Virus record (IMG/VR): IMGVR_UViG_3300048837_000552
Coordinates: 1-50,238 of that record
Length of the DNA: 50,238 nucleotides
DNA from: a virus
Reading direction: 5' to 3' (one strand)
Under the pieces are notes generated by a model that saw only the letters and a program-made list of their open reading frames with translations, did not search any database and had not been told where the DNA came from. Of this stretch, positions 4,799 through 35,786 are shown one piece after another. The translations under genes were made by a program, and so were the position numbers. Numbering within the stretch: the first letter of the stretch is position 1; each line of letters starts with the position of its first letter.

Positions 4799-5572
4799 CT
4801 ACTTGTCCGGGTGCATAATCTTCGCCCAATCGAATGCCGGCCCGATATCGAACTTGTCTGAACGGAAGTTCTGGTGTGAGGCGATTCCTTGAAACGACTG
4901 GAAGTAACTGGTAGCCGGATTGTTGATGTCGGCGCTCAATCTGAATCCCTCGCCGGGGATGACGCGGGGGATCGAGAAAGACTCGCACAACTGGCTCACC
5001 AGCGCTCGCCCGCTCTCGTATTGCTGCGGAGTGAAGGTTGCATAATACCGCTCTCCGCGATGCGCCTCTTCCTTGTATTTCGCCAACTCGTCAACCGTGC
5101 AGTACTTGGTGCTAAAGTTCCCAGGCGGCCACCAGAACAACTCATCGCCCTTGCGCCGCAGTGGCCCGACGTTGACGAACTCGATTCCGATGCTGCGCCG
5201 GTCATGTTTGTAGCTTTGGCTCGCCTGCCCCGGAATGCCAAGATGGAAGGCCCAGTGTTTCGGGTCGAACAGCTCATACACCGCGCCGTCCCGGTCAATG
5301 ATGTACGCCGTCGCCACGCGCTGTTCGTCGGACATCCAATGCGAATACGCACCTTCAGCCGAACTGCCCGCCGTGAAGTGCAGCACGACGAGGTCCTTGG
5401 GTGTCACTTCCGGGATATACTGCGACTCTGGAAGCCTGAACCTAGTGCGATTGATGGAGAGAGGTTGCGCCGCAACAGTGGGGACGGCGGGCGCCGGCGC
5501 TACCTCTGCGACTGGCGGGTCGATCTCGTCGGCCCACGCCCTCATCTTTGCGGCCAGATCCTTGGGTGTCAT
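4799..5572 (-). CDS. Endolysin, N-acetylmuramoyl-L-alanine amidase (Amidase_2 type)
   Basis: A 257-residue protein. An N-terminal helix and an Ala/Pro linker (about residues 20-40) precede a type 2 amidase domain (about 50-257). Visible landmarks are LHFTAG with His65, the W-x-x-H element around 107-110, IGIEFVN with Glu131, and the C-terminal SHQNF...KFDIGP..DW with His233 and Asp242, matching the zinc ligands and the family's K-x-D-P-G-p ending. It would cut the amide bond between muramic acid and L-alanine in peptidoglycan. No signal peptide is visible, so it needs a holin. Its ATG overlaps the TGA of the hydrolase gene. Confidence 0.9.
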   Translation of the reverse strand: MTPKDLAAKMRAWADEIDPPVAEVAPAPAVPTVAAQPLSINRTRFRLPESQYIPEVTPKDLVVLHFTAGSSAEGAYSHWMSDEQRVATAYIIDRDGAVYELFDPKHWAFHLGIPGQASQSYKHDRRSIGIEFVNVGPLRRKGDELFWWPPGNFSTKYCTVDELAKYKEEAHRGERYYATFTPQQYESGRALVSQLCESFSIPRVIPGEGFRLSADINNPATSYFQSFQGIASHQNFRSDKFDIGPAFDWAKIMHPDK

Positions 5573-6306: not shown

Positions 6307-6641
6307 CACGCCCCTCCGATTTCCCGAATTACCCAAACCTCAAACTTCTTACCCCCCATGCTGAGGATTGCCTTCTCCTTCCAGTCGGGCTTGGCCTTCT
6401 CCTGTATCAGGATCTCTTCAACGATCTGACCGATGACAGAATCCTCAGGCAGCGCCTCAGCCAGACCAGCCGTGGCGAGTTGCGCCAGTATAGGCCGCAG
6501 GCCATCCAAAACCATCTGTTTCTTCGTGGGGCCAGTGCCGGGAGGCAGCATTTCTTCAGCCTCTCGGATACGCGATGGGGCATATCGCGCAACGAGTGCG
6601 CGGATGCCCCAGACGCCAGCGGCGACGGCGATCGAGGCCAC
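6306..6641 (-). CDS. Small membrane-linked protein, holin candidate
   Basis: A 111-residue protein with a GTG start at 6641, preceded by GGGGGGAG. The N-terminal hydrophobic stretch (about residues 3-20, MASIAVAAGVWGIRALVA) could span the membrane once. A charged helix with a GTGPTKKQMVLDGL element follows, recalling LL-H-type phage holins, which carry one N-terminal segment and a Gly-Lys-rich helix. It is coupled by TGATG to the hydrolase and amidase. The hydrophobic segment is short, so an accessory lysis or unrelated role remains possible. Confidence 0.5.
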   Translation of the reverse strand: MASIAVAAGVWGIRALVARYAPSRIREAEEMLPPGTGPTKKQMVLDGLRPILAQLATAGLAEALPEDSVIGQIVEEILIQEKAKPDWKEKAILSMGGKKFEVWVIREIGGA

Positions 6642-7885: not shown

Positions 7886-10800
7886 TTACTCCAGTGCCGA
7901 GATACGAGAATCCAATTCGGCCAGTTTCTCGTTGACTGTTTGATCCCCGCTATAAATGAGCGGAGCTTTCGCTGCTAGCTCATTCGTCAGTCCTGAAACC
8001 TTCGCTATGGTGAACCCTGTCACTGTTCCAGAATTAGTAAAATTAATGCCACCATTGGCAACAAACTGCAATTCCCCCTGGATCTGAAGCAGCGTGGATG
8101 TCGCCGTAAAGCATACAGTGGTTCCTTGCTTGACCTGCAAGGCTTCTGCGATGACGTAGGTGCTCAGCAGGGAGAGGACGGCTGACCCGTTTGTGATGAC
8201 GATTCCGCCGGCTGAGATATTAACCGAGTTGGCGCCCTTGACGAAGGCGGCACCAGACGCATTTAGAACGATGTACGCATCCGTGGAGGAGTTATTGATC
8301 CTCATTTCGCCAGTCAGGTTGATTGTCTTCGCCAGCAGGAAGTTCATCACCGCAGCTTCAAAGATGACGAAACCGCTATCCACGCCAAAATACGACGGGC
8401 TCAACCCCCACGTTTCGAGGTTGGTCAGCGCCTTCGCTGTGAGTTTCTTCTGCCCACTCTCATCCACGATGACAAGGCGGTCGCCGAGTAGCGGAGTGAG
8501 TTTGCCCGCAACAATGGTCATGCCATCGCCCAAATTGACCGTGATTCCTTCTGCGGTCCTGGTCACTCCGCCCGCTGTGGGTTCCTCCACCGTCAAAACC
8601 ACGTTGTCAATCAGCATCCGGCCCGAGGTCGCGGCGGCGGGCAGGAAGAATACCACCTGGAGCTTTGCAGCGTTCGCCGGGGCCGTGCCGGTCACGGTGT
8701 ATGAGGCATAGGAGTCTCCAGTGATTGTCGCCGGCGGGATGTCGCTGATGTAGCCGCCTGCGGCGTTCAGCCACTGCAAATACATGGACCCCGTCGTGTT
8801 CGTGTTCTCCCGCGCATACGCTTGCAGCCGATAGATTCTGCCAGGGGCCACATTGCCTACCGTCTGAGTGAAGTATCGGTTTTCCGATGCGGCGGGAATG
8901 TAGGCAGCCTGACCATCATAGGCATCAGTGGTGGTAGCGACGATGCCAGCGACGGGGGGGTCCCAATCGTTGAGGCCGGCGGCGAAGTTCCCATTCGACA
9001 AACCCCCGCCATCCTTGGTGGAAACCAACTTGCCGTCGATGATATTGGCGCCAGATCCCAATGTCGATGGGTCAATATGGGCAGCATCGAACCCCTCGCT
9101 CGAAGGAACCGCGATCGGGCCAACGATAACCGGAGTGCCAGGGACACTGTCCTGGTTGATCGGGGTCAGGCGGATCTTCCACCAGGTTGGATACGCCTCC
9201 ATCTTCCAGAGGGACGTGCGCTGCTCCGATACCCACTTAGACGTGCCGGCATCGAACACGCCTCGCGGATCAAGTCCACCCAAGTCGATCCACTCTTCCG
9301 AATCCGGCGTGGTCATCGCCTCATCGAGGTAGGGCATGGCATCCACCTCGATCCAGTAAATGCCGGCCCAGTCGTTCTCATCGTCGTAAATCGCCCGCTT
9401 GATGAACCCATACGACGGGACGCCATCTACCACCGCTGTCACGGCCAACGAGTTGTTAGCGTATGTCGAGGGTGGCGCTGGCGCCGCTGCGATCAGAGGG
9501 AGCGGAGCCTGCGAGTCAACCCAGTCCGTCGTTGTCCCGTCGGCATAGACCAAGCGCACGCTCGCTTTTGCGTAGCGCTCATATTCGGGAAGGGGCCTGG
9601 GCCATGCGCCCCACGTCCACGATTCTTGAGAGATCGGGATACGATCACCGAAGACCCGCCAATCGCCCTCTTGCGTTGTCCCGGCGTCTTCGTAAAAGAA
9701 CCCAAGCCGGGCCTGCCAGGAAACAGCGCCCGTCGCCGGGATCGGAGGGATGATCGTGATTTCAGACTGATAGGCCTCCGGGTGTCCGGGCGGGCTCTGG
9801 ATGGCGACCGAACACGCCATGCTCTGCGTGGGCTCAACCGGGACGCCCGCCTTTGGAACAAGCGCACTCGCCCCGCTGTAGACCCACGCGCCGCGCTCGC
9901 CGCGCTCGTTGAATGCACGCACACGGGACCAGAGGGAGACATCGGTGGCGTCCCGGTAGAACGGCGGCAGCGGCGGCGCACCAGGATTCACTTCCCGAAC
10001 GAATCCGCCATAAACGCTGCCGGCAGGAATCCAATCGCCGTCAGCGCCCGGCGGCGTGACTGAATCTCCATACGCCAACTCGTATTCGTACCCAACGGTG
10101 CTCCCGATGGGTGATGGGAGGGTCCAAAAAATACTGGCGTGCCAGGTGAGGGGACCTAAGACAACAACCCTCTGTCCGACGCCGGACGGAGGGTTGGGCG
10201 CAACCCCGTCACTAGGGTTCCCAGACAACTCACCACTCGTGATGTTGATTGTCCAGTAGGTTGTCAGCGACGCCTTAGTGTGGTCTTTGTACGGCTGCCG
10301 GCTGCGCTCACCATAAGAGGCGAGAAGCAGGTAATTGTCGCCCTCGACCAGATACCCGCGAGGGATGATGACATCGACTTCGCCGAGATTATCCGGCGGC
10401 GGGTCGGCAGGTGTCCCGGTGTAAGGCATCTGCCCGGACGCATACGGGCGCTTGGGGTCGTCTGCCGGCTCCCAAAATGCGACGACTCCTTGGAACTCGG
10501 GGTTGATCGTCGGGATTGCGCTACTGCCAATATAGGGAGGCGCGTACCCGCTATAGGGCGTATCCGTGCGGAGTGCCTGAAGGCGTAGATCTCCGTTGGC
10601 GAGCCACGTCTTGACCGGCGGCGCCGAGGACGTGACTGTGACGTTCCCTAACCCGTCATCCACAATCCCGGACAGGTAATCCGTGAAATCGAGCGTGATT
10701 GTCGCAAATGGCGTGTACCCCGCCGGCGCGGGCGGGGCAAGCGCCGTGAGCCGAACGAGCCGGTTGGCGTACCCCCAAGAGCGAGATAGGGCGTAGATCA

Positions 10801-11680
10801 CCCATTTCACCTTGGGATCTACCAGTGACTCAAGGTAATCCATGGGCGGCACTGGAACGTCGAGTTTGGCCGTCCAGGTTTTCGGGTCAAGCTCCTGCGA
10901 TTCTTCGCTGAAGTGCCAGCCTTGCGGGTAGAGTTGGCCCGGCAGGGTGATATTCTCCGGGTCAACATCGTCCTCTTTTGGGATTTCGATGAAGACTTCG
11001 ACGCCAGCGAAGTTACCATCCTCCGGGGCCGTACCCGTCATCGTCACCAAGACCCGTCCGTCCTTGATCTCGAACGTCGCAGCGACATCTGTTGAGTCGG
11101 CAAGCGGAGTCTCCCCGACTGGAGTAGCCGCAGGGATTTCCACCACGACAGAGGGGGTAGCACCCTCATCCAGCGGGTTTGTGGCCGTAGCCGTCATCGA
11201 CGAAAGCCAAATCTGACAATCCCGATCGCCAGCAGCCGGCTGAGTCACCACCACGCGGACCATGCCCCACCCGTCCTCGTCCGGCTGGTAGGGCATAAAC
11301 CCTGCATCGACAGGCACGTCCGTTGATGTGTCCGGCATCCGGAACCAGGCTTGGACACCCCAAAAGGAACCGATCGGAGAGGGCGCCCGGTATCGCAGCG
11401 TCACAGCCGCCGTGATCCCATCGAAGTTGACTGTCTCCACGACTTCGATGTCGGTGACGTTTCCAGGGATGGCCCCACTGCCGATTGCTGCACCGATGGC
11501 GTTTCCGGCTGTCCCGCCAACCCGCCGCATCCGCCCCAGGTCGCTCCGGACAGACCTCACCTCATCCGATGACTTCGCAGCCCGTTTGAACAGATCCGCG
11601 ATGATCGAATTGATGCGGAAGACCTTGGGGTCCTCCATATCTGCCTTGGTGATGCGAGGGATCAGGCTCTCTTCGGCCAT
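7886..11680 (-). CDS. Tail fibre / host-recognition protein
   Basis: A 1264-residue protein. A short helical N-terminus (about residues 20-60) probably attaches to the tail. A long series of beta-rich Ig or fibronectin III-like segments follows (about 75-880). A carbohydrate-binding CBM4/9-like module, starting GNFAAGLNDWD and ending MLIDNVVLTVEE, lies near residues 890-1030. A repetitive C-terminal fibre part with Asn/Ser/Gly strands ends in a short helix that could trimerise. It would bind cell-surface glycans. AAGGTACTAG precedes the ATG at 11680. One palindrome copy (10175) lies inside. Confidence 0.8.
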   Translation of the reverse strand: MAEESLIPRITKADMEDPKVFRINSIIADLFKRAAKSSDEVRSVRSDLGRMRRVGGTAGNAIGAAIGSGAIPGNVTDIEVVETVNFDGITAAVTLRYRAPSPIGSFWGVQAWFRMPDTSTDVPVDAGFMPYQPDEDGWGMVRVVVTQPAAGDRDCQIWLSSMTATATNPLDEGATPSVVVEIPAATPVGETPLADSTDVAATFEIKDGRVLVTMTGTAPEDGNFAGVEVFIEIPKEDDVDPENITLPGQLYPQGWHFSEESQELDPKTWTAKLDVPVPPMDYLESLVDPKVKWVIYALSRSWGYANRLVRLTALAPPAPAGYTPFATITLDFTDYLSGIVDDGLGNVTVTSSAPPVKTWLANGDLRLQALRTDTPYSGYAPPYIGSSAIPTINPEFQGVVAFWEPADDPKRPYASGQMPYTGTPADPPPDNLGEVDVIIPRGYLVEGDNYLLLASYGERSRQPYKDHTKASLTTYWTINITSGELSGNPSDGVAPNPPSGVGQRVVVLGPLTWHASIFWTLPSPIGSTVGYEYELAYGDSVTPPGADGDWIPAGSVYGGFVREVNPGAPPLPPFYRDATDVSLWSRVRAFNERGERGAWVYSGASALVPKAGVPVEPTQSMACSVAIQSPPGHPEAYQSEITIIPPIPATGAVSWQARLGFFYEDAGTTQEGDWRVFGDRIPISQESWTWGAWPRPLPEYERYAKASVRLVYADGTTTDWVDSQAPLPLIAAAPAPPSTYANNSLAVTAVVDGVPSYGFIKRAIYDDENDWAGIYWIEVDAMPYLDEAMTTPDSEEWIDLGGLDPRGVFDAGTSKWVSEQRTSLWKMEAYPTWWKIRLTPINQDSVPGTPVIVGPIAVPSSEGFDAAHIDPSTLGSGANIIDGKLVSTKDGGGLSNGNFAAGLNDWDPPVAGIVATTTDAYDGQAAYIPAASENRYFTQTVGNVAPGRIYRLQAYARENTNTTGSMYLQWLNAAGGYISDIPPATITGDSYASYTVTGTAPANAAKLQVVFFLPAAATSGRMLIDNVVLTVEEPTAGGVTRTAEGITVNLGDGMTIVAGKLTPLLGDRLVIVDESGQKKLTAKALTNLETWGLSPSYFGVDSGFVIFEAAVMNFLLAKTINLTGEMRINNSSTDAYIVLNASGAAFVKGANSVNISAGGIVITNGSAVLSLLSTYVIAEALQVKQGTTVCFTATSTLLQIQGELQFVANGGINFTNSGTVTGFTIAKVSGLTNELAAKAPLIYSGDQTVNEKLAELDSRISALE
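10175..10186. repeat. Dispersed palindrome copy, TCCGACGCCGGA
   Basis: Inside the tail fibre gene. Here it is read in a different frame, as Pro-Ser-Gly-Val-Gly. Confidence 0.85.
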
Positions 11681-24628: not shown

Positions 24629-26830
24629 CTAAAGAGAGTGGTAATCCACCTCAAGTTCGTCCGCAGTCGGGTCTGGATACTTCAAGAGTTCGGCGTGTGG
24701 GTCCATCCCAACAGTCGGCTGAATCATAGACCGAATCTTGACGTGCATGGAACTACAGCGGAAGCACCGTCGATAGTCGGATGGCTGGTTTGCCGGCCAC
24801 CGCTCCCCGCAGCTTTCACACGAAAAGATGTACGGAGCCGACTCCAGGGTGAGTTCGCTCTCCACTCGGAGGATGCCTTTGTCGGAATCCCAATCTCGCT
24901 CATGAGCGGTCGCATAGGCGATCATCAGCGCCATGATGCGATCGTCGTGGCCGACGCCGGCGCCCATCTTCGTGGTGGAGTTGTCTTCCTTCCTGAAGTT
25001 CAGGATTTCTGTCGCTGTGACCTTACTCCGAATCAGCAGGATGCGATGATCCAGCGCCGTGCGAAGTGCATCATACAGCCTCGACTTGCTGTTGGCTGTC
25101 GTCTTCCACCCCAACCCCTGCGTTTCCATGGCGAGGCTGGAAGAGTTAAGGGGACGGAAGATGTTTGGGTACTGGAGTCGAACCCGGAGCGCATGTAAGA
25201 CGATCCCGCCGCAAGTGTTGTTGATCTCCGATGCCACCATGGCGGTGTTGTAATACTGCCCCAGTCGATTCAGTAACTCAGCGAACGCAGTCGGTGAGAT
25301 CACGTTTGAGGCAAACTCTGCTACCTGCTCATCTGTGCCCCCAAATCGGTGCCTCTTTATCACCTGAGCAACGCTGTAGTCATGGTCCCCGCCCAACCCC
25401 TCGGCAATGTCAGCGCCGATGACATACTGTTCGCCCGGCACCGGGCGCTCCCACACCACAAGGGAGGTGTCCTCGTACCGATGATCGAGAGAGCACCCGC
25501 CCAGCCAGCACGTCGCCGTCTTCGGGTTATGACCGTGAAGGTTCAGCGACTTATCGAGGTAGCCAGTGAATTCCGGATCACTCAATGAGCTATTCACGTA
25601 AGCCAACTGCTTCTCGTTGAAAAGGCGGATACCAGATAGCCGGAACGCCTCCTCGGCAGTGGAGCATAGCTCCTGGCGCATCTTATTCAGGGACTGCTCA
25701 TCCGACTCGGAGCTTGTTCGCTTCGTCTCCATGTAGAAAGCCTGCTCATCGGAGAGAGTGAATTCACGAATCACCCCAAAATTGCAGTAGGAGCAAACCG
25801 ATCCAATCTGCTCCACGCCATTGCTCCGGCGCGGGACGTACTGGAGGCAGAGCTTGTTATCGCAACGAGCCCAATCGCGATTGGCCCGCGCCCGCATGTC
25901 TGACTCTTCCTGTTGGATCTTCCACCCAGGCATCACCACGGAGCGGCGCGACTTGTCGAAGAACCAGGGTAAAAACATCGGGCGCCATGGGGCACGGTCG
26001 CCCATCTTCACCATGCGCTTCCAGAATTCGTGCGAATAGGTGCCGGCGCCCTTCGCTGTGGACTCAAGGATGCCAAAGGTGTGGGGGCCATCGGCTAGCG
26101 CATAGGTGATGTCCTCCTCGATGATGTCGCGGGCCTGCTTCGGGTTCCAGTCTGCCCACTCTGACAGGTGCGCTCCAGCGAGCGCATGTCCCTGCCCGAT
26201 GCCAGTCAGGGACGTAGCGCCCTTCGCCGTCACCCGACAGTTCATGCCGGGGTTGGTTCGGCGCTCACTGAAATCCTTGCGATCCAAGATCAAGCCGTCC
26301 TTGAATTCGCGACTGGCGCACTCCGGGCGCATCCACCACGGCAACTTGTCGTAGATGTGCTGGACATAGCCGAACAACCGGGCCGCGTGGTCATCGTCGT
26401 AAGAGACGATGAAGCAATCCGAGTTCCGGTAGAAAACCACACGATGCGCAATCAGCGACTCTGCGACCGTGGAGATACCCAACTGCCGGGCCTTGATTAC
26501 AACGATGCGCTGTGACAGGCCCTGTGCCTTCATGTGCAGGATTTCGTTCAGAAGAAGCTCTTGCGACTCCCAGAGCTTGAAAAGCTGATCCTCTTTGGTT
26601 TCTTTGTTGACGATCCAGAAGTAATTGCGGGCCGCGTAGCTGAAATCGTCCTTACAGCGCTGGATCTCCTGGACGACGACCTGAAGCTCTTTGGCTGTGA
26701 GGTAATCCCATGGACTCCCGTGCTTCTTCCCCTGAACCCACATCGCCTCTTTCTCGTCCAGGTGCCGGATCAGTTCGTCCACCCCCTGATCCCTCTCCCA
26801 TCTCGGCTTTGGTTTGTTGACTATCAGCAC
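24629..26830 (-). CDS. Terminase large subunit
   Basis: A 733-residue packaging motor with ATPase and nuclease domains. The ATPase has a Walker A-like KARQLGIST (about 113-121), Walker B AHLSEWAD (about 220-227) and coupling motif GILESTAKG (about 253-261). A zinc-ribbon-like insert with Cys pairs follows (about 323-349). The nuclease begins at GADIAEGLGGDHDYS, and a late DDRIMAL supplies a further acidic residue. A second zinc ribbon (CESCGERW...CFRC) lies near the C-terminus. I chose GTG 26830, because GAGG lies 9 nt upstream and the CTAGTG context recurs here. The upstream ATG at 26887 lies inside the previous gene without a ribosome site. Confidence 0.88.
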   Translation of the reverse strand: MLIVNKPKPRWERDQGVDELIRHLDEKEAMWVQGKKHGSPWDYLTAKELQVVVQEIQRCKDDFSYAARNYFWIVNKETKEDQLFKLWESQELLLNEILHMKAQGLSQRIVVIKARQLGISTVAESLIAHRVVFYRNSDCFIVSYDDDHAARLFGYVQHIYDKLPWWMRPECASREFKDGLILDRKDFSERRTNPGMNCRVTAKGATSLTGIGQGHALAGAHLSEWADWNPKQARDIIEEDITYALADGPHTFGILESTAKGAGTYSHEFWKRMVKMGDRAPWRPMFLPWFFDKSRRSVVMPGWKIQQEESDMRARANRDWARCDNKLCLQYVPRRSNGVEQIGSVCSYCNFGVIREFTLSDEQAFYMETKRTSSESDEQSLNKMRQELCSTAEEAFRLSGIRLFNEKQLAYVNSSLSDPEFTGYLDKSLNLHGHNPKTATCWLGGCSLDHRYEDTSLVVWERPVPGEQYVIGADIAEGLGGDHDYSVAQVIKRHRFGGTDEQVAEFASNVISPTAFAELLNRLGQYYNTAMVASEINNTCGGIVLHALRVRLQYPNIFRPLNSSSLAMETQGLGWKTTANSKSRLYDALRTALDHRILLIRSKVTATEILNFRKEDNSTTKMGAGVGHDDRIMALMIAYATAHERDWDSDKGILRVESELTLESAPYIFSCESCGERWPANQPSDYRRCFRCSSMHVKIRSMIQPTVGMDPHAELLKYPDPTADELEVDYHSL

Positions 26831-27260
26831 TAGAAATGTCCTCAAATTCGGCGTACACGGGCGGCGGCGCCTCGATCGCACGCACATCCGACGCCGGACG
26901 ATCTATCGCTGCCCGCTCCCGGCTGTCCAGTGCCGCAACAATTGACTCAAAACTCCTCGCCCCGGAGCCCCGCCCGCCGCCGCGCCCACCTGACGCATTC
27001 AGAATCTGGTTATTGTTCTGAATCTGCACCTGTGGCCCGATCTCCAGGTACTTCATCATCTTGGCTGTCATCTGGATGATGCCGGGATCGCCCGCCTTCA
27101 ACTTCTTCTTGATGGCCTCAAACATCCCATCCAAGAGATCAGGGGTATGCTCGCGGAGCTTCCGCTCCTTCTCCCTCTCAACCTGCTTGCGGGTCAGCAA
27201 GCGCCGCTTCCCAGTGTTGCCAGTTTCGGGTGCTGCTTCTTGCGTTTCAACTTCAGGCAC
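26652..27260 (-). CDS. Putative terminase small subunit or packaging accessory
   Basis: A 202-residue protein with a GTG start at 27260, in the context GACTAGTG with GGAAGG upstream. Residues 15-75 are helical and basic (TRKQVEREKERKLREHTPDLLDGMFEAIKKKLK). A Gly-rich hinge and an acidic Gly/Arg-rich tail follow. It stands where TerS is expected, directly ahead of the large subunit, but no clear HTH is seen. The last 60 codons overlap the large-subunit start by 179 bp in another frame, which is unusually long, so its true end or the neighbour's start may differ. Palindrome copy 26887 lies in the tail. Confidence 0.5.
   Translation of the reverse strand: MPEVETQEAAPETGNTGKRRLLTRKQVEREKERKLREHTPDLLDGMFEAIKKKLKAGDPGIIQMTAKMMKYLEIGPQVQIQNNNQILNASGGRGGGRGSGARSFESIVAALDSRERAAIDRPASDVRAIEAPPPVYAEFEDISSADSQQTKAEMGEGSGGGRTDPAPGRERGDVGSGEEARESMGLPHSQRASGRRPGDPAL
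26887..26898. repeat. Dispersed palindrome copy, TCCGACGCCGGA
   Basis: In the small-subunit candidate, read as Pro-Ala-Ser-Asp-Val, 57 bp upstream of the large-subunit GTG. Confidence 0.85.
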
Positions 27261-27273
27261 TAGTCAAACCTTC

Positions 27274-30045
27274 CTATTGGACTGTGAACGTCCCACCCTT
27301 CCGCACCGTGCCGCATGACACCCGGTAGTGGTACGCCCCTGCGCTCAACTCAGTCGCCGTGAACGTGTGCAGCCGCCCGTTCTGAGTGTCTGCCGGGTCC
27401 GCGCTGTCGTCACTCGTCGCCGGAACGGACGCCCCCACGTAAACCCGGCACGCCGCCCCGGAGGGCGCCACATACCGCAGCGTGGCCGTGCCTTCCGCCA
27501 CCGACACCCGCACGCGCTGAATCGGCCGGTCGGGATCGAACAGCCAGCGCGGATCGCTGTAACTCGAATAGATCCCGGTAATCCCCACCGCCTCATTCGT
27601 GTGGCAGTTCGCGGAGAATACTTCCGACGCCCGCGCCGAACGGAGGAAGTCAGAAGACCATCGCCCTGCCGCGCACATACCCTCGGCATAGCTCCCACTG
27701 TCAGACATGAGGGTATCGTGGCCGACTACCACCGACGGCAGGGTGTACGTGTAGGCAGAAACGAGTTCAGCGTAACTGGTGCCGGGGCGAGAGCAACTGA
27801 CCGTGGTCCCGCTAGTTCTGGCCCCCCGCGTCGTCACGTTGTAACCGCGCCCACCCCGCCAGGTGCTGCCCGCGATCATGTTATTGCCCTCGACCGCCAC
27901 AATCAGGACCGTCTCCCCAACCCAGATCGTAAACGGTGGATCACCACACGCCGCGCCGTTCGCCACTGGAATCGTGGTGTCGTTTGCTCCGATGTTCGCC
28001 GTGAGCGTGGTGGAATTGTGGAACCGCACCGGATGATGGTACTGTCGCAGCATCGAGGGGTTCGCCCCTGGCTGAGTCGTCACCAACTGGTAGCGTTCGG
28101 CGTGGTGCCGAGCAAGGCCACAGGCCATCCCTTCCGTTCGGCACATATCAAAAAACGCCATCGAGATCCACACATCCATCCACGGAGATGTGCCCTCCGA
28201 CACGATGGCCGTATCCTGCCCACTGCGTTGTGCTGTAGAGCCTCGCACCGTCGAGTGCCGATTTGGGTTCCGGCTGGCTTGCGATTCAATCATGAAGCCG
28301 TGACACCATCGGCTCGTGTCCGTCGTCGGATCGTAAGGGTTCGTCGTGCATGGCTCGTAAAAATCTCCGTCCCTGACATTGAAGTACCCCTCACGTTGGG
28401 CGAGGACATCAAGAAACTTCTCACGCAGGTAGCCGTGTTGCGGGTCATCGTCCGGCACGATCAGCGAAGCCCGCCAGATGTTCCACGAAAGCCATGCGAC
28501 CTGCCGATGGTTCGACTCGAAAGAACTCAGCGTCCCCCACGTTCCTTTGCGCTGCCCGGACTGGTGGGCCACCAACTGAGCCCAGAAGAAGACCGTATGC
28601 GCAAGAAACGACTGCTCCTGCATAAAGAACCAGTCCCCGGTGATGAGATAGGCCAACTGGGTATGCGTGTGACGATGAGCGCCATCGGGAGACCATCCAT
28701 TCCAATTATTCGGCGACCATGCGACAGGGCCGACCGCAGAGGGAAGCCCAGTGGTGCTGCCGAATAACCACACGTTCGTCGTCGGACGTGTGTTCAGCGA
28801 GAGGGGCATCCCTAGCGCTGGCGTGCTGCCTCGATAGTTGGGCAACCCCGTCACCAACTCACGGTGATGGTGTGGCTGCGAGGTGACATACTCCGCGTTT
28901 CCGATCACGATGTCATAGAGGTCTTTCCTTTGCGTGTAGAGCCACAACGCCTCCCAGTGCGGGTAGAAACCGCGATCGCCTCGCCCCCCGGTCGCCGAGT
29001 AGTCTCTCGTTCGGTTGCCGCAGACTATCCCCGTCAACGTGCAGGCGAAGGGGAAATCGTTGTTCGTGCCAGCCGACCAGCCCGCCAGCACTCCATTAAT
29101 GGAGGTCTGTCCCCCTAGCGCCGCTGTCTCCGTGATCGGTCCGAACGGGTAGCGGTAGGGCGGGATCATCTTTGAGTGGCGCAGGTACTCCATGTTGAAG
29201 TCGGTGTTGGTGGCGACCGGCTGGTCGCCGTCCCAGAAGGTCTTCCTCCACCACGTCAAGGCAATCCCGCGAATCCCCGCCTGAGTCAGGACAGCGCCCG
29301 CCGACGTGCGGAATTCCACGCTGTAGCGCTGATCCTGCCGCTTCGAGGTCCAGTAATTCGCAATGATATTCTCGATCCTCACCCCTGCACCCTGCTGGAA
29401 CGTCAGAACGAAGATCGGATGCAGGCTCCGGTGCGTGGTGTCATCGGCCCAGGTGCAGGTGTCATAGGGCGCCGTGCAGCCAGCGCCCGCCCAGCCAAAG
29501 TCGTAGATCCGGTCCACGCTGGCGTCCTCCGCGATCACCGCTGTCACCAGCGGCCCACGCAGCCAGTAGGTGAAGTGGTTCGCGGTCAGCATCGTGCGGG
29601 CGTTTGCCGTGCGCTGAGTCGTCGCGCCCACCGGATCGGCGGACACCCGCATCTCCGCATCCCATGTCCCGCCGTTCGCTGCCAGCATCCCCGCGCCATC
29701 CAGCCCCGCTGCCTCGCACGTTGCCTGATTGCCGAGGTGACAGGCGTTGGCCGAGTCGCGGAAGTCCACCACGATGCTGCTGAGTGCCGGGATCGCTGCC
29801 TGAAAGTGGATGATGGCGTACCGCACGCTGCCATCCGGCCAGCGGTTCTTCACGTCCACCTGCCACGCCGATGCCGCCGCGTTCGAGACGAACGGCTGAG
29901 GGTAGTTGACAATCTCACCCTGAGCGAACCAACGGGGAACGCGATGGGCTTGCGAGGCCGGCACCTCGTTCGTGGTGGAGATTGTCACCGCGTTCGACAG
30001 GCTCCAGAGGGGGAGGGCCAGTAGGGTCAGGAGGAGGAGTTTCAT
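27274..30045 (-). CDS. Secreted polysaccharide lyase-like protein
   Basis: A 923-residue protein with a classic Sec signal peptide (MKLLLLTLLALPLWSLSNA, cleavage after about residue 19). The next 130 residues, with a WPDGSVRYAIIHF strand, resemble the RIFT-barrel N-terminal domain of PcRGLX/YetA-type exo-rhamnogalacturonan lyases. A long helical toroid-like part rich in Trp and His follows (about 230-680), then beta-rich C-terminal modules (about 690-923). Many Cys residues fit disulfide formation outside the cytoplasm. Its ATG overlaps the TGA of the previous secreted protein. It may degrade capsule or exopolysaccharide; both enzyme class and substrate are inferred. Confidence 0.65.
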   Translation of the reverse strand: MKLLLLTLLALPLWSLSNAVTISTTNEVPASQAHRVPRWFAQGEIVNYPQPFVSNAAASAWQVDVKNRWPDGSVRYAIIHFQAAIPALSSIVVDFRDSANACHLGNQATCEAAGLDGAGMLAANGGTWDAEMRVSADPVGATTQRTANARTMLTANHFTYWLRGPLVTAVIAEDASVDRIYDFGWAGAGCTAPYDTCTWADDTTHRSLHPIFVLTFQQGAGVRIENIIANYWTSKRQDQRYSVEFRTSAGAVLTQAGIRGIALTWWRKTFWDGDQPVATNTDFNMEYLRHSKMIPPYRYPFGPITETAALGGQTSINGVLAGWSAGTNNDFPFACTLTGIVCGNRTRDYSATGGRGDRGFYPHWEALWLYTQRKDLYDIVIGNAEYVTSQPHHHRELVTGLPNYRGSTPALGMPLSLNTRPTTNVWLFGSTTGLPSAVGPVAWSPNNWNGWSPDGAHRHTHTQLAYLITGDWFFMQEQSFLAHTVFFWAQLVAHQSGQRKGTWGTLSSFESNHRQVAWLSWNIWRASLIVPDDDPQHGYLREKFLDVLAQREGYFNVRDGDFYEPCTTNPYDPTTDTSRWCHGFMIESQASRNPNRHSTVRGSTAQRSGQDTAIVSEGTSPWMDVWISMAFFDMCRTEGMACGLARHHAERYQLVTTQPGANPSMLRQYHHPVRFHNSTTLTANIGANDTTIPVANGAACGDPPFTIWVGETVLIVAVEGNNMIAGSTWRGGRGYNVTTRGARTSGTTVSCSRPGTSYAELVSAYTYTLPSVVVGHDTLMSDSGSYAEGMCAAGRWSSDFLRSARASEVFSANCHTNEAVGITGIYSSYSDPRWLFDPDRPIQRVRVSVAEGTATLRYVAPSGAACRVYVGASVPATSDDSADPADTQNGRLHTFTATELSAGAYHYRVSCGTVRKGGTFTVQ

Positions 30046-31034
30046 CGGACCCCCGCCGAGGCCCCAAACTGCCCCTTGAAGGACCAGTAATCAACGTCGA
30101 TGTGCTTGGCTCCGGTCGAGTCCGTCTGGACATAAAACCACGGATGGCCGTTCGCGGCGTCGGTCCAGAACGAAGACCCATCCGCGATGGTGAGGTCGCA
30201 GCCCGACACGCAGGCCGTGATCGGGGTGCCGCTGTCGAGTTGCGCGTAGACCTTTTTGTTCGTCCCGTCTGTGTAGACCCGGAAGGTGTGCCATGCCGTG
30301 TCCAGCGCCACCCCGGTCGAGACGGATGCCTGCTCACCGCCCGCGCCCCAGACCACTTCAAAGTTCCCGGTTACTGGCCGCAGCCCGATCCCGCGCGACA
30401 CGCTCAGTCCGTTCGATGCCCACACCCCGAACGCGATTCGGAAGGTGATGTCGGCGGACTGCCCCAGTCGGAAGATCTTCTTCTCCTCCCAGATCTTCGT
30501 GGTGTCGGTGTAGATGTTTCCGAAGATCTGAGATCCTGTTGGGGACAAAGACACTACCCCGTTGTTTCCACTCGTCGCGCCCGACGCCACCCGCAGAACA
30601 CCGTAATAGGGGCGCGCGCCCGTCTGGAGAGAGACGGTCGCGTTCGAGTTGAACCATCCGAGCGCCCCGATCTGGAGCGAGGTCGTACCGCCGCTGACAA
30701 ACTCTTCAGCGGCGCAGACCCACCGGGCATCACCCGGCAGGCAAGGCACGTCCGAGAGTTCAATCCCCCCTCCGCCGCCGCTCGTCACAGCGGTCCAGGT
30801 ATTCGCCGCCGTACACAGCATCAGGTTTGAGCCGGCTTCCGCATCCGAGTCGAAAAACTGCTCACCTACGGTACACGTCGCCGGAGCCGTCGTCCCCACC
30901 TTCGCAGGAATGGTCCAGAAAGAATCCGAGGCGTCCCAATATCCCTTCAGGACTCTCGACCCATTGATTGTTTCAACGCTGCCCCAAAGAAGGGCGACGA
31001 TGCCCAGAAACAGAAAAATCAGTGTGCGCTTCAT
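30042..31034 (-). CDS. Secreted lectin-like beta-sandwich protein
   Basis: A 330-residue protein. I set the start at ATG 31034, where a signal peptide begins (MKRTLIFLFLGIVALLWGS) and GGAG lies 9 nt upstream. The frame open further upstream lacks these. A Cys-containing module (CTVGEQFFDSDAEAGSNLMLC) is followed by a concanavalin A/LamG-like sandwich (about 125-330) with WHTFRVYTDGTNKKVYAQLD, the usual back-sheet signature. It would bind sugar or surface polymer. It lies between the fibre-like and lyase-like secreted genes with a 2-bp gap and a 4-bp overlap, so all three are one unit. Confidence 0.65.
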   Translation of the reverse strand: MKRTLIFLFLGIVALLWGSVETINGSRVLKGYWDASDSFWTIPAKVGTTAPATCTVGEQFFDSDAEAGSNLMLCTAANTWTAVTSGGGGGIELSDVPCLPGDARWVCAAEEFVSGGTTSLQIGALGWFNSNATVSLQTGARPYYGVLRVASGATSGNNGVVSLSPTGSQIFGNIYTDTTKIWEEKKIFRLGQSADITFRIAFGVWASNGLSVSRGIGLRPVTGNFEVVWGAGGEQASVSTGVALDTAWHTFRVYTDGTNKKVYAQLDSGTPITACVSGCDLTIADGSSFWTDAANGHPWFYVQTDSTGAKHIDVDYWSFKGQFGASAGVR

Positions 31035-31036
31035 CG

Positions 31037-32944
31037 CTAGAAACTCCTCACAATCGTTGCCCCAAACTGGAACCCATTCGCGACCGCAATCCCCGCTCCG
31101 GTGAAATTGCAGATCTTCACCGTCATCTGGTCGATGCCGGCCACGTAGTACTCCACGATCAGACTGGCAGGCAGTCCCGCCGGCCTGGCTCCCGCTACCG
31201 AATCCCCAGACAGCGCCCCCGGGAATGCATACGTCTGCGTCGGACACGCGCCCGCCGCGATCGTCCCCCAATCGTTCACCGTGGCTGCCACCTTCAGAAA
31301 CATCGGCACCAGCGCCGGGTTGACCCCGAGCGGGGCTCCCTCACTGCCATCCCCCACCAGCGACTCGTCCGTCACCACGGTGCCCGACCCGCCTTCGCCG
31401 CCGCCCGTGTTGGTGATCGTGATGATGTCCATTCCCTCTGTCACGCTGATTCCGGTTCCCGCCACCAGAGTCCGCGCCGTCACGTTCGTCCCGGTCTTCA
31501 GTACCTGCGCACCGGCGCCCGAATTCGCAACGCTTGTCGTATCGCCGCTCCCACTACCACTGCTGCTCCCGCCGCCGCCTGACACGTTGACAGCGAACGC
31601 CCCGGACTGCGGAACCGCGAACGTCAAGCGGGATTCATTGTCGCTGAGGTGTTGCAGTGAGCCAGCATCCACACTCGACCCGCCGCTGTCGTACACCTGA
31701 TACACCAGCGCCCGGTGTCCCGCATTGTGCTCAATGTCGATCGTCGTCACATTGTCCAGAGGAATCCAGAGATTCGGCGATGACCCGGACCCACCACCAG
31801 GGATCAGCAATAAACGACCCGCCTGCGCCACCGCAAACGGGACCGTCACGTCAAACTGGCCTTCCCCCGCATCGGTCTGGCACTCGCCGGCGCCGGCGGC
31901 CACGACCTTGACCCCAGTGGAAGTCGCCTCCTGCGTCACGATCGCGAAGTCACAACTCCCGATCCCATGCTCCGCCGCCGTAACAGTCCAAGTGGTAGCT
32001 GGCTCCGTGAATTCCTTAACGAACGTCGCCGTCGTTGTCGAACCTTCAACACCCCCCACCCCACACGCAGCCGCTGCGACCTCCAGCGATTGTCCGTCTG
32101 CCGCCACTTGCACGCACCGGCCCGCCGTCCAGGACGTGCGCCCTGTTCCACCCATGTTCACGCCCAACGTGGAAGACAGACCCCCGGCTGTTCCTGTCGT
32201 ATTCTGATTCAGCGTCGGAAAGTTCGTCAGATTCGCCGCGCTCACCGCCGGCAGTTGCCCCGACTCATTCAACTGCACCAGATTGTTCGCCGCCGCACCA
32301 ACCGTGTACGACGTGCCCCACGCGCTACCCGTCGAATTCGGAACGCCGGCTCCGGGATAGATCATCTCCCCGCCACCGCTGCTCCCGCAAGCGGCTCCCG
32401 CACTCTCCAATTGCGTTCCGTCCGCGCTTACTTGAACACACCGGCCCGCTACCCACGTCCCCTGGTTTGTGCCGCCACGCGCCAGCGGGATTGTCCCTGT
32501 GGCGATTTTGCTCGCGTCCAGCGCCGGGATGCGTGCCGCATCGAACGTCCCGCTGGAAATCTGCGAAGCAGCCAACTCAAGCGCAGACTCAACAACATCC
32601 CAATCGATGTAATTGCCACTCTCGGACACAGTGACTCGCGCACTACCGGCCCGCGCACGTCGAAACTGCAAATCCACCGAATTCTTCGAGACGAAGAAGC
32701 TCGCCGCCCCAGTCCCCAAATTCGATGCCGTGTTCGCTTCGCCTCCAGTGGCGCCAGGAGCCGTGGCGCACTCAATCCGGCCCGTTGCTGTGTTCAGCGT
32801 GAGGAAGTTGTTCGCGCCGACGCAAAGAGAAAGATTCCCAACAGGCTTGCCGCCCAAGGCGTTCCCGCCGCCGCCGCCGACCCCCATTTGTCCGAATACC
32901 CCGATCGCCGTCAAGGCTGCCAACAGAAGCAATCGCTGGAACAT
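31037..32944 (-). CDS. Secreted tail-fibre-like repeat protein
   Basis: A 635-residue protein with a signal peptide (MFQRLLLLAALTAIGVFG). Residues about 130-160 carry the fibre repeat FDAARIPALDASKIATGTIPLARGGTN. The element GRCVQVSADG...LESAGAACG occurs twice (about 165-185 and 270-290). The rest is Gly/Thr/Ala-rich with beta character, typical of trimeric fibres. TTAGGTACTAGGAG precedes the ATG at 32944. A fibre-type protein carrying a Sec signal is odd for a virion component, because assembly happens in the cytoplasm. It may instead be exported to the cell surface during infection or lysogeny. Confidence 0.65.
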   Translation of the reverse strand: MFQRLLLLAALTAIGVFGQMGVGGGGGNALGGKPVGNLSLCVGANNFLTLNTATGRIECATAPGATGGEANTASNLGTGAASFFVSKNSVDLQFRRARAGSARVTVSESGNYIDWDVVESALELAASQISSGTFDAARIPALDASKIATGTIPLARGGTNQGTWVAGRCVQVSADGTQLESAGAACGSSGGGEMIYPGAGVPNSTGSAWGTSYTVGAAANNLVQLNESGQLPAVSAANLTNFPTLNQNTTGTAGGLSSTLGVNMGGTGRTSWTAGRCVQVAADGQSLEVAAAACGVGGVEGSTTTATFVKEFTEPATTWTVTAAEHGIGSCDFAIVTQEATSTGVKVVAAGAGECQTDAGEGQFDVTVPFAVAQAGRLLLIPGGGSGSSPNLWIPLDNVTTIDIEHNAGHRALVYQVYDSGGSSVDAGSLQHLSDNESRLTFAVPQSGAFAVNVSGGGGSSSGSGSGDTTSVANSGAGAQVLKTGTNVTARTLVAGTGISVTEGMDIITITNTGGGEGGSGTVVTDESLVGDGSEGAPLGVNPALVPMFLKVAATVNDWGTIAAGACPTQTYAFPGALSGDSVAGARPAGLPASLIVEYYVAGIDQMTVKICNFTGAGIAVANGFQFGATIVRSF

Positions 32945-32960
32945 TTGACTCTCCTAGTAC

Positions 32961-33302
32961 CTAACGAATGTGCGCGGACACCAGCCCAGCATCCCCGTTG
33001 TTATCCGCATCCAGGTACAAGTCATGCGGCTTGATCGTGTTCAGGGCGTTGTACTCGCCAAACGCCCAAGTGCTGCCCTGTGGGATGATCGCCAGGACGC
33101 CGGCCAGCGTGGTCCGATTCATGTCTGCGTACCCCAAGTACAGCGGGCCGGTATTGTCCGTGAGCGCCTGGATATTCAGCTTGCTCACAACCATCTGCTC
33201 GAACTCGCTGTCGGATGGGAAGTTCGCCGTCAATCGAACCGGCGTTCCCGCCGCAGCCACAGCCACTTTCCCTAATGGAACGGGGTTCATCGTAATCGGC
33301 AT
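32961..33302 (-). CDS. Small virion-type protein, 113 aa
   Basis: A beta-rich, Thr/Ala/Gly-containing protein (MPITMNPVPLGKVAVAAAGTPVRLT at the start) without signal peptide or membrane segment. It resembles small phage head or tail proteins of the kind annotated as structural. It is the first gene after the terminator and promoter-like element at 33.3 kb, with GGAGG followed by TATTAGGT directly before the ATG. The secreted trio follows in the same direction with a 16-bp gap. Exact role unknown. Confidence 0.55.
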   Translation of the reverse strand: MPITMNPVPLGKVAVAAAGTPVRLTANFPSDSEFEQMVVSKLNIQALTDNTGPLYLGYADMNRTTLAGVLAIIPQGSTWAFGEYNALNTIKPHDLYLDADNNGDAGLVSAHIR

Positions 33303-33317
33303 ACCTAATACCTCCCC

Positions 33318-33349
33318 TCCGAACTAGCACAAAAAGGCAATCGGCTCAA
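33318..33349 (-). promoter_or_regulatory. Late-type promoter-like element, secreted trio unit
   Basis: TTGAGC (33344-33349), 17 bp, TAGTTC (33321-33326), then GGAGG. It begins a few bases after the U tract of the terminator at 33355-33388, which is the best contextual evidence that the element is a promoter. Confidence 0.7.
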
Positions 33350-33354
33350 TCCAA

Positions 33355-33388
33355 TAAAAAACCCGGCGAGCCAAGAAGACCCGCCGGG
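33355..33388 (-). terminator. Rho-independent terminator
   Basis: Stem CCCGGCG/CGCCGGG (33362-33368 with 33382-33388), 13-nt loop, followed on the transcribed strand by TTTTTTATT. It lies 43 bp past the stop of the 267-residue gene. Confidence 0.85.
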
Positions 33389-33431
33389 GACCCGAAAGGA
33401 GGAGGATTGGGGTAAATCTGATCTCCGCTGG

Positions 33432-34235
33432 TTACTTGCCGCCCCGGATGAAGGCCATCTCTTCAGGAGATCGGCTTGCGCGCCACATTGCCGCTTTCTC
33501 GGCGCCCGACTGTGCGGCCTCATCCGCATCACCACCAACACCACCCCGCCCCGATTGCGGGTCAAAGGCCCGGATCGGCTCAATGCGAGGCTTGACCTCT
33601 CTGTGTCCAACAAAGAATCGGGAGCGGGCCGCGTCCTTGATCTCGCGAATCTTCTCGCTGAGGCCGATCTTCTCCTGCGTGGTGGCGAAGATCGCGTAAG
33701 GCCCATCCTGGCTGCCTTCTGGGTTATACGCCAGCCGGACGATCTTGAGCCCTTCGTCCGGGCGGATCTGCCGGAACAAGCGAAGAGGCGCCTCCTCCCC
33801 CATGTCAACATCGAGAATCGGGGGCGCGGAGTTCTCCAGATGATCGCGGATGGTGTCCACGTCGAAGTACTCAAAGTCAGCCGGACGAACCGTATCCACC
33901 CGGACTCGGCGCGGCGGCGCGATCGGCTCATCATCCGCCAGTGACACTGGCACCGTCACCCCGGCGTCCGACGCCGGATGTACTGAATGAACCTTGAACG
34001 ACTTCTCCTCTGCCGAAATCACCCGGCCTGGATCGTCCCGACAGGCGCCGGGGAGCGGGGGGCGAGGGGCGAGGCTAGCCTGCGCCGGCACCGCCGCCAG
34101 AACCCCGCTCCCCATGATCTGCTCCGTGATCTGAATGCTTCTGGCAATCTCTTCCGCAATCTCGCTCGCCGTGGCGCCGGCGGGGACCCGCCCCAACGCG
34201 CCCGCGATCACTGTCTTCAACGTGCCAAAATCCAT
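33432..34235 (-). CDS. Hypothetical protein, 267 aa
   Basis: Start chosen at ATG 34235 (AAGGAG 6 nt upstream). A short helical N-terminus (MDFGTLKTVIAGALGRVPAG) and a Pro/Ala linker precede a globular part (about 110-240) with an acidic stretch and a LKIVRLAYNPEGSQDGPYAIFAT strand pair. No signal peptide or catalytic motif is visible. It ends the unit that begins with the two membrane proteins, ahead of the terminator. Palindrome copy 33967 is read here as Pro-Ala-Ser-Asp-Ala. Family not recognised. Confidence 0.55.
   Translation of the reverse strand: MDFGTLKTVIAGALGRVPAGATASEIAEEIARSIQITEQIMGSGVLAAVPAQASLAPRPPLPGACRDDPGRVISAEEKSFKVHSVHPASDAGVTVPVSLADDEPIAPPRRVRVDTVRPADFEYFDVDTIRDHLENSAPPILDVDMGEEAPLRLFRQIRPDEGLKIVRLAYNPEGSQDGPYAIFATTQEKIGLSEKIREIKDAARSRFFVGHREVKPRIEPIRAFDPQSGRGGVGGDADEAAQSGAEKAAMWRASRSPEEMAFIRGGK
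33967..33978. repeat. Dispersed palindrome copy, TCCGACGCCGGA
   Basis: In the linker of the 267-residue hypothetical protein. Confidence 0.85.
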
Positions 34236-34249
34236 CTCAACTCCTTCCG

Positions 34250-34732
34250 TTACTCGAAGCCCGGCGTTTTTTTTTCGCTCCACGCGCCGGACTCATCCAT
34301 CCCTTCCGTGTTCAAGCGGAAATCAGCGTTGGTGTGCTGGACGTAAAGAGCGTCCCGGTCCTCTTCCGTCAAAACCTGGACCTGCTCACGATCATCCGCT
34401 GGAGGTGCGTCGCGCACAATGACATCGACAAACCGGCCAATGGACTTCTCCAGGCGAAGTGCGGTTTCACCCGCCGTCTGGAATGCCTTCATCATCCCTT
34501 CCGCGTACCGATCGCCATTACGATAGGACTCAAGGAGTCCGGTCATGATGACCGTAAGAGCGGCCTGCGATTCGGCCAACTGCTTCGCGGACGCAACGAG
34601 GTCGCGAAGCAGTTCCGTCCGCTGTGCCTCACGAGACTGCATGTACTTGCGGACGCGGGGAACCACAAGAAAAACCAAGAGAATAAGCGCCAGATTGGCT
34701 GTCGCTATGACCCAAAATGCTGAACCTTGCAT
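34250..34732 (-). CDS. Single-pass membrane protein with helical tail
   Basis: A 160-residue protein starting at ATG 34732 (AAGGAG 10 nt upstream). One strong membrane span (about residues 6-25, VIATANLALILLVFLVVP) is followed by a long, charged amphipathic helix (about 30-105) and an acidic tail. Topology resembles phage inner-membrane spanins or accessory lysis proteins, but no outer-membrane lipoprotein partner is seen beside it. It overlaps the end of its upstream neighbour by about 3 bp spacing. It could also act in membrane anchoring during DNA entry. Role unassigned. Confidence 0.55.
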   Translation of the reverse strand: MQGSAFWVIATANLALILLVFLVVPRVRKYMQSREAQRTELLRDLVASAKQLAESQAALTVIMTGLLESYRNGDRYAEGMMKAFQTAGETALRLEKSIGRFVDVIVRDAPPADDREQVQVLTEEDRDALYVQHTNADFRLNTEGMDESGAWSEKKTPGFE

Positions 34733-34733
34733 G

Positions 34734-35144
34734 TTATCGAGACTCCTTCTGTCTCCCGCGCCGCGCCTCATTCAGCCGGCACGATTCGTCGTGGTCCATT
34801 GGGCAGTCCTGTCTTTTGTCGTAAGCCGACTGCACCATGTCTGCCATCAACTCAAGGCTCCTTGAGATGTTGACTTGAGCCACCGTGTTCTCCTTGATGA
34901 CAACAGCCAAGTTGGCGGCCAACCGATTGTCGGCCTCGCGAATGCGATCCTCCCTCTCCCTCGTCGCCTTCGTATCCTCCCGCCAGTACTTGAACATGAC
35001 GAGAACCAGGGAAAACATCAAAACAGCGAAAGTCTGCTCCGAGATCCATTGGGCATTCGGGATGCCGACCCCGGAAACGAAAAGAGAGAGCATACCCATG
35101 GGCGGGACCACGTATGGGGCAGCATCCTTCAAAAATAAGAGCAC
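34734..35144 (-). CDS. Membrane protein with two hydrophobic segments, holin-like candidate
   Basis: A 136-residue protein. GTG 35144 is favoured because AGGAGG lies 10 nt upstream and a promoter-like element lies just ahead; ATG 35099 is an alternative. Two hydrophobic stretches (about residues 1-25 and 40-60, TFAVLMFSLVLVMFKYW) are followed by a charged coiled-coil-like helix and a Cys-containing basic tail. A small two-segment membrane protein at the head of a late unit would fit a holin, yet the endolysin lies 29 kb away. Function open. Confidence 0.5.
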   Translation of the reverse strand: MLLFLKDAAPYVVPPMGMLSLFVSGVGIPNAQWISEQTFAVLMFSLVLVMFKYWREDTKATREREDRIREADNRLAANLAVVIKENTVAQVNISRSLELMADMVQSAYDKRQDCPMDHDESCRLNEARRGRQKESR

Positions 35145-35163
35145 AGGCAGAAGCCCTCCTGTG

Positions 35164-35194
35164 TCTGAACTAGCACAATTGCTTAGTCTGGGCA
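35164..35194 (-). promoter_or_regulatory. Late-type promoter-like element, membrane protein unit
   Basis: TTGCCC (35189-35194), 17 bp, TAGTTC (35166-35171), within AATTGTGCTAGTTCAGA. AGGAGG for the GTG at 35144 follows. It lies after the dUTPase stop, the boundary between early-type and late-type genes. Confidence 0.6.
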
Positions 35195-35228
35195 ATGATT
35201 CACGGGTAATTGCTGCCGGCATTTTTTG

Positions 35229-35786
35229 CTATACCCCCGTTGACCCAAAGCCCCCCTCGCCCCTATCCGAATCCGACAAAGATTCACCATCCACGGCGAC
35301 TTCAACGTCTGGCGCGAGGTACGGCATGAAGACGATTTGCGCGACGCGGGACCCTGCGGGAATGAGCTTCTCGAAACCCATCTCACCAGTGCCGTCCATC
35401 CGGTTGAACGTCATCCCGGACCACACCAAGATGACCCCGACATCGCCCCGGTATCCGGGGTCAATCGTGCCCGGCGAGTTGAAAACGCAGACGCCTTCCT
35501 TGAGGGCGAACCCGCTTCGACTGCGAACCTCTGCCTGCACGCCGGCGGGCAGTTCCATCCTGAGTCCCGTCTTCACGAGCACCGGGACATGCGGGCGGAG
35601 AACCACCTCCTCGATCGAGAACAGGTCCATGCCGGCGTCTTCACTCGGCCCATGCGCGAATCTTGGGATCTGCGCCAAAGGCGATGTCTTCAGAATCCGG
35701 ACTTTGAGCGGCGGCGGGATCGGCGCGGTTTGCGACTCCGCGACCTGCGCTTGCGCCTGAACTGCTTGCGTGCCCTTACTCTTCAA
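35229..35786 (-). CDS. dut: dUTP diphosphatase (dUTPase)
   Basis: A 185-residue protein with all five trimeric dUTPase motifs: DAGMDLFS (50-57), RSRSGFA (88-94), the substrate hairpin NSPGTIDPGYRGD (103-115, Tyr112), RVAQIVF (147-153) and the mobile C-terminal RGEGGFGSTG (175-184). It converts dUTP to dUMP and pyrophosphate, keeping uracil out of phage DNA and supplying dUMP. An extra Gln/Ala-rich N-terminus of about 28 residues precedes the domain. The start is TTG at 35786 with GGAGG 7 nt upstream and the TACTAGG spacer. Confidence 0.93.
   Translation of the reverse strand: MKSKGTQAVQAQAQVAESQTAPIPPPLKVRILKTSPLAQIPRFAHGPSEDAGMDLFSIEEVVLRPHVPVLVKTGLRMELPAGVQAEVRSRSGFALKEGVCVFNSPGTIDPGYRGDVGVILVWSGMTFNRMDGTGEMGFEKLIPAGSRVAQIVFMPYLAPDVEVAVDGESLSDSDRGEGGFGSTGV

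Follow-up and report, generated by a model that had tools for sequence, protein, structure and literature searches.

Runs of fibre-type genes with predicted Sec signal peptides recur in phages of Acidobacteriota hosts, probable or known

In the textbook view, assembly of tailed phages takes place wholly in the cytoplasm. An IMG/VR virus record of 50,238 bases (the window, meaning the whole stretch of DNA analysed) carries three consecutive fibre- or enzyme-type genes, here named A, B and C, each of which starts with an apparent Sec signal peptide. This locus raises the question of whether the signals are real and, if so, what a phage would do with such proteins outside the cytoplasm. As the first-pass annotation had described, the three genes are near-touching or overlapping and lie upstream of the terminase (Table 1). 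The spacing is 16 nt between the 113-aa gene and A, 2 nt between A and B, a 4-nt ATGA overlap between B and C, and 13 nt between C and the small-terminase candidate, and these five genes were therefore regarded as a single unit, in which A-B-C are translationally tight and all on the minus strand. The start of B given in the ORF list (31271) is too early; the ATG at 31034 is preceded by GAGGAG, and ribosome sites are good at the start codons of both A and B. The terminator claimed before the unit was found as a hairpin upstream of the 113-aa gene. The late-type promoter claimed with it was not recovered, as no sigma-70-like site, the only type scored, occurs in 26500..35500.

Table 1. Features of the A-B-C region in the window. 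A slash marks the predicted cleavage site.
Feature	Coordinates	Strand	Description
Large terminase subunit (TerL)	24629..26887	-	
Small-terminase candidate	26652..27260	-	adjoins C downstream; L032 has a weak homologue in the corresponding place
Gene C	27274..30045	-	923 aa; Sec signal MKLLLLTLLALPLWSLSNA/V; 16 Cys
Gene B	30042..31034	-	330 aa; Sec signal MKRTLIFLFLGIVALLWG
Gene A	31037..32944	-	635 aa; fibre-like; Sec signal MFQRLLLLAALTAIGVFG/Q
113-aa gene	32961..33302	-	no signal; first gene past the terminator-like hairpin
Terminator-like hairpin	33362..33388	-	strong; 5′ of the 113-aa gene; CCCGGCGGGTCTTCTTGGCTCGCCGGG + TTTTTTATTG

The window phage generated matches to portal, major head and internal virion proteins, and showed distant similarity to the Acidobacteriota isolate Tunturi_1 in TerL, portal, head protein, a structural gene, a 1289-aa gene and the 113-aa gene. 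Based on these matches, it was classified as podovirus-like and related to Tunturi_1. Homologues of the 113-aa protein were found in L032 (54%), L034 (34%) and Tunturi_1 (gp33, 28%, deposited as tail fiber). Elsewhere on the minus strand (4799-6336), an Amidase_2 endolysin gene adjoins a gene for a DUF900 alpha/beta hydrolase, which may be a lysis partner acting on lipids or the envelope. TerL, with 18 Cys in its ORF, carries a C-terminal zinc-ribbon-like extension with a weak match to HypA. A polynucleotide kinase/phosphatase-like gene (AAA_33 and HAD_PNKP) is located at 37856-38761, and a surface-binding candidate with a weak CBM_4_9 match at 7886..11680.

Signal and gene calls were made using our own rule-based scripts. 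A, B and C all passed the Sec test (positive n-region, hydrophobic core, small residues at -3 and -1), compared with 0/24 other window genes of at least 200 aa (Fisher P = 3e-4), though no sharp cleavage site could be assigned in B. The first-pass annotation had named related phages lacking the hydrophobic starts as counter-evidence; instead, the signals are kept in divergent relatives of A, B and C, down to 24-45% identity. The related loci L002 (75-80% identity in B and C) and L003 (24-45%) carry four signal genes each, including an extra collar-type protein (MKKLVVVGFLAVFTLAAFMQ.. and MKKKLIAAFFMGVLLVFGYFQ..). Between the window or L007 and L002, the signal of B differs by 10-11 amino-acid changes, all of which replace one hydrophobic residue with another, compared with an expected share of about 0.57-0.6 (P about 0.004-0.008).

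Cysteines were compared between the mature part of 31 cassette proteins and 116 other genes of the same phages; the cassette loci had been picked as A-B-C homologues or for their signals, and the cysteine results are independent of the signal call. Cysteine content was 1.63% in the cassette proteins and 0.92% in the other genes (P = 2e-6). An even number of cysteines was found in 27 of the 29 cassette proteins having any (P = 8e-7; 23/25 after close homologues were dropped), compared with 42/87 other genes. Since pairing is expected in an oxidising compartment, the even counts point to disulfide proteins folded outside the cytoplasm. Cysteine pairs are also conserved in the alignments of A and B (C54/C74 and C275/C279 in B). 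The cleavage sites of the cassette proteins favour A/G-Q, with [AGS]Q present at residues 14-30 in 20/31 of them and in 2-5 in control windows. The same pattern of a small residue followed by Gln occurred in 26/52 chromosomal signal proteins from two Acidobacteriota genomes, suggesting that the phage signals resemble those of the host. This recalls the Q-rule defined for Bacteroidetes (PMC5837995), by which most substrates of signal peptidase I have Gln at +1; within the window, a clear fit is seen for A only. The claim of a Sec signal on each of the three proteins is thus borne out by the rule-based test, the relatives, the substitutions in the B signal, the cysteines and the cleavage sites. 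Chance hydrophobic starts were rejected, and the predicted signal peptides are genuine by these several independent criteria.

The products were less readily assigned to families. A contains a fibre-type repeat segment (ISSGTFDAARIPALDASKIATGTIPLARGG) with local similarity to a tailspike of a Streptomyces phage and to proteins of Pelagibacter phages; two Cys are conserved in its C-terminal domain. B is mostly beta. None of the three hit Pfam or an informative PHROG family. B and C, annotated at first as lectin-like and lyase-like, had no Pfam, PHROG or PDB sequence match, and a 10-sequence profile of C had no match in PDB. AlphaFold2 models of C (pLDDT 33, 6 sequences) and B (pLDDT 37, 4 sequences) were unusable, and a PDB fold search with the latter returned nothing at E <= 0.001. 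Relatives of C include secreted Acidobacteriota chromosomal proteins, of which three were noted. One is of lipoprotein type and lies beside a priA-like gene; another (L022:12555-15047) combines a signal with a dockerin domain, is encoded within an Acidobacteriota gene cluster for polysaccharide biosynthesis, and is a candidate dedicated exopolysaccharide-degrading enzyme. A distant phage homologue of C (23%) is gp39 of EBPR siphovirus 1 (JF412302), whose neighbour gp40 was deposited as a glycosyl hydrolase. From the secreted chromosomal homologues and this neighbouring hydrolase, C is probably a polysaccharide-acting enzyme, with surface polysaccharide as the best guess for its substrate. The proposed polysaccharide action therefore gained support for C, while the specific labels of lectin and lyase found no family match. 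Taken together, A, B and C are very likely exported proteins of fibre or depolymerase type, judging from their sequences.

Runs of 2-6 signal genes were also found in L002, L003, L010, L026, Tunturi_1, Tunturi_4 and Tunturi_5, spanning podophages with T7-type adaptors, a T4-like myophage and three cultured phages; the Tunturi phages comprise podo-, sipho- and myovirus morphotypes (PMC11924767). In L002, L003 and L026, the signal set directly follows a stand-alone T7-fibre-N-like adaptor without a signal, five candidate signal genes being present in L026 (two from an alternative start only); the adaptor relatives in L027 and L028 are longer single proteins, also without a signal. L010, a T4-like myophage fragment, carries a baseplate-wedge gene (phrog_438), A-, B- and C-like genes each with a signal, and a large tail-type gene, and L009 carries a beta-helix-type spike and a C homologue, both with signals. 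The signal genes of Tunturi_1 are gp12, gp13, gp14 (deposited as tail spike), gp16 and gp17; for gp14, the start used was 12 codons inside the deposited one and may lack a start codon, and the deposited start also yields a signal. In Tunturi_4, gp113 and gp114 have signals, as does gp111 when read from a TTG start further upstream. In Tunturi_5, six signal genes lie in a row (gp337-gp342), with gp337, gp341 and gp342 deposited as tail fiber and gp338 as virion structural protein. After the cleavage site, gp337 and gp341 carry the tail-fibre-type motif NLxL..P.D....WGPL...DLxxLD, which resembles Tunturi_4 gp112, itself signal-less; such an N-terminal motif is also present in Tunturi_1 gp13. The LamG and GDSL esterase domains of gp342 indicate that this protein is polysaccharide-directed. 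A fibre slot and fibre-type domains were found for the relatives in L002, L003, L010, L026 and Tunturi_1/4/5, while for the window cassette, located beside the terminase, a fibre nature is suggested only by homology and the repeat motif. By these sequence comparisons, runs of signal-bearing fibre-type genes recur across unrelated phages of Acidobacteriota hosts, probable or known.

Two further observations concern these loci. The deposited start of Tunturi_4 gp111 (L112:10075-13172, PP885687) appears to lie about 120 codons too far downstream; the upstream in-frame part provides the TTG start and a signal, MNRISKAIGLCALALSVGSSYG/QTAAV, homologous to that of gp113. The C homologue of L003/L147 (IMGVR_UViG_3300037010_002266) spans the contig ends, so that the 41,984 bases of this contig appear to represent a complete genome, either circular or permuted.

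The frequency of such signals was determined in two control sets, not all of them whole genomes. Of the roughly 550 genes in 80 TerL-related loci, 8 scored, and the single run was in L074. The second set, ten further phages (T7, part of T4, crAss001, B40-8, phi38:1, Mx8, P60, HTVC010P, LKA1 and 11b), gave 4/258 scoring genes and no runs. The run in L074 (16346-20583), whose host is unknown, comes after a portal-like gene and has no recognisable sequence kinship to A-B-C. No signal fibres were found in the structural region examined of Tunturi_3, whose fibres are signal-less, and no such runs in ten Acidobacteriota prophage terminase regions, where the signal runs look ordinary chromosomal ones. 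The trait is therefore recurrent, not universal. Imposition by the host was ruled out, as Tunturi_3 lacks the trait on the host of Tunturi_1.

Over the 18.8 kb compared, nothing but A (its C-terminal part), B and C is common to the window and L002, and identity there is 48-80%. The TerL of L032 is 59% identical to that of the window, and in this locus the 113-aa gene, small-terminase candidate, TerL and portal gene are contiguous without A-B-C. These comparisons indicate that A-B-C is a cassette moving between phage lineages. The closest C homologue among genome contigs (81% identity) was on a short contig of a Bryobacterales (Acidobacteriota) MAG, which was the single phage-like C homologue in a scan of one genome per species; the contig also carries B and may be phage DNA.

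We hold, at about even confidence, that the locus is an exchanged fibre/depolymerase cassette whose products are exported by Sec and dock on virions late, via adaptors. The horizontally exchanged proteins would pass through the host Sec pathway and, once cleaved by signal peptidase, would fold and form disulfide bonds in the oxidising periplasm; that cleavage and disulfide folding take place there is highly probable from the signals and cysteines. At lysis, the mature fibres would meet the released virions and dock through signal-less adaptors made in the cytoplasm, and the receptor-binding and polysaccharide-degrading parts would thus be added late, outside the cytoplasm. C and its relatives would cleave Acidobacteriota surface polysaccharide, with A, B and the related collar-type protein acting as binding or structural parts. 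The docking step taken by itself could go either way. Fibres and spikes of other phages attach in vitro to otherwise finished particles, so late docking is physically plausible, and the separate signal-less adaptors of L002, L003 and L026 would suit it. Since relatives of A-B-C occupy tail-fibre slots and some have fibre-type N-termini directly after the signal, they may belong to the virion after all, produced in an unconventional way. Against the docking model, the window has no T7-type adaptor and contains other signal-less surface-binding candidates (7886..11680), the fibres of Tunturi_3 are signal-less on the host of Tunturi_1, and the ten prophage terminase regions gave no such runs.

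Virion membership of A-B-C would be preferred over free action at the cell surface, with a purely secreted set nearly as likely. The first-pass annotation favoured the latter. In such a reading, the proteins would be exported, never enter the virion, and bind and digest polysaccharide in order to free progeny from exopolysaccharide, clear or mask receptors, or exclude other phages. This is a serious possibility. In mature A, B and C, no domain for attachment to the virion was identified; C shares its N-terminal region with chromosomal secreted proteins, and this region is thus not a virion adaptor. The membership of C in a family of secreted Acidobacteriota proteins, among them the dockerin protein of the polysaccharide cluster, and the insertion of the cassette beside the terminase also agree with secretion, as does the presence of secreted Q-rule proteins of unknown function in Porphyromonas phages (PMC10367356). 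However, most cassettes lie in tail-fibre slots together with collar- or fibre-type proteins, some of which have the tail-fibre-type motif after the signal, and a secreted set would leave Tunturi_1 and L002 few obvious receptor-binding proteins. It is improbable that the signals are leftovers of captured secreted host proteins on fibres assembled in the cytoplasm with uncleaved N-termini: the chromosomal secreted homologues of C and the signal-less gp39 would fit, but several unrelated gene families keep their signals at high divergence, the changes in the B signal stay hydrophobic, and cysteine parity and content indicate disulfides. An uncleaved N-terminus anchoring the fibre in the virion or host membrane is very unlikely; tailed phages have tail proteins that insert into membranes, and the ill-defined cleavage site of B would agree, but a plausible small-x-small site is present in most members, and Gln often comes next, as it does in host signals. 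Cargo serving the host or lysogen through auxiliary polysaccharide use is the least probable explanation, for although polysaccharide-degrading auxiliary genes occur in soil phages and C has secreted bacterial relatives, A-B-C are tightly packed and co-directional with the head and terminase genes, resemble fibres, and no integrase was recognised among the proteins examined.

Returning to virion membership, the cassettes resemble known tail fibre and tailspike genes (T7 gp17-type adaptor, collar-type, beta-helix spikes) in that the relatives' genes follow a tail adaptor or adjoin baseplate genes and encode fibre repeats, collar-like and beta-helix domains and, in some, a tail-fibre-type N-terminal motif. 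They differ in their Sec signals, many cysteines in even counts and separately encoded adaptor; T7, the part of T4 examined and the eight other control phages lack signal-gene runs. In the Porphyromonas phage proteins, signal cleavage likewise exposes a glutamine, matching host usage, but those phages have a Bacteroidota host and the proteins were not described as fibre cassettes (PMC10367356). SAR endolysins and spanins are also late phage proteins using the host Sec pathway, whereas A-B-C are large fibre- or enzyme-type proteins with cleavable-type signals, and the window amidase (4799..5572) is signal-less. Unlike C, gp39 of EBPR siphovirus 1 has no signal peptide, even with the upstream reading frame included. 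A literature search for signal-bearing tail fibres found no earlier description.

We tentatively propose, while placing it a little below an even chance, that Acidobacteriota tailed phages build part of the virion extracytoplasmically, from Sec-exported disulfide-bonded receptor-binding fibres and depolymerases that dock after lysis and, paired with a cytoplasmic adaptor lacking a signal, make up mobile two-part fibres. Gene callers can hide such signals, as with Tunturi_4 gp111, where the deposited protein apparently starts about 120 aa too late. The recurrence of exchanged signal-bearing fibre genes across phages of three morphotypes would imply one of two things: virion parts can mature beyond the cytoplasm, or many soil phages shed unattached fibre or depolymerase proteins onto their hosts. 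The cultured Tunturi phages make the question of virion or secreted proteins directly testable.
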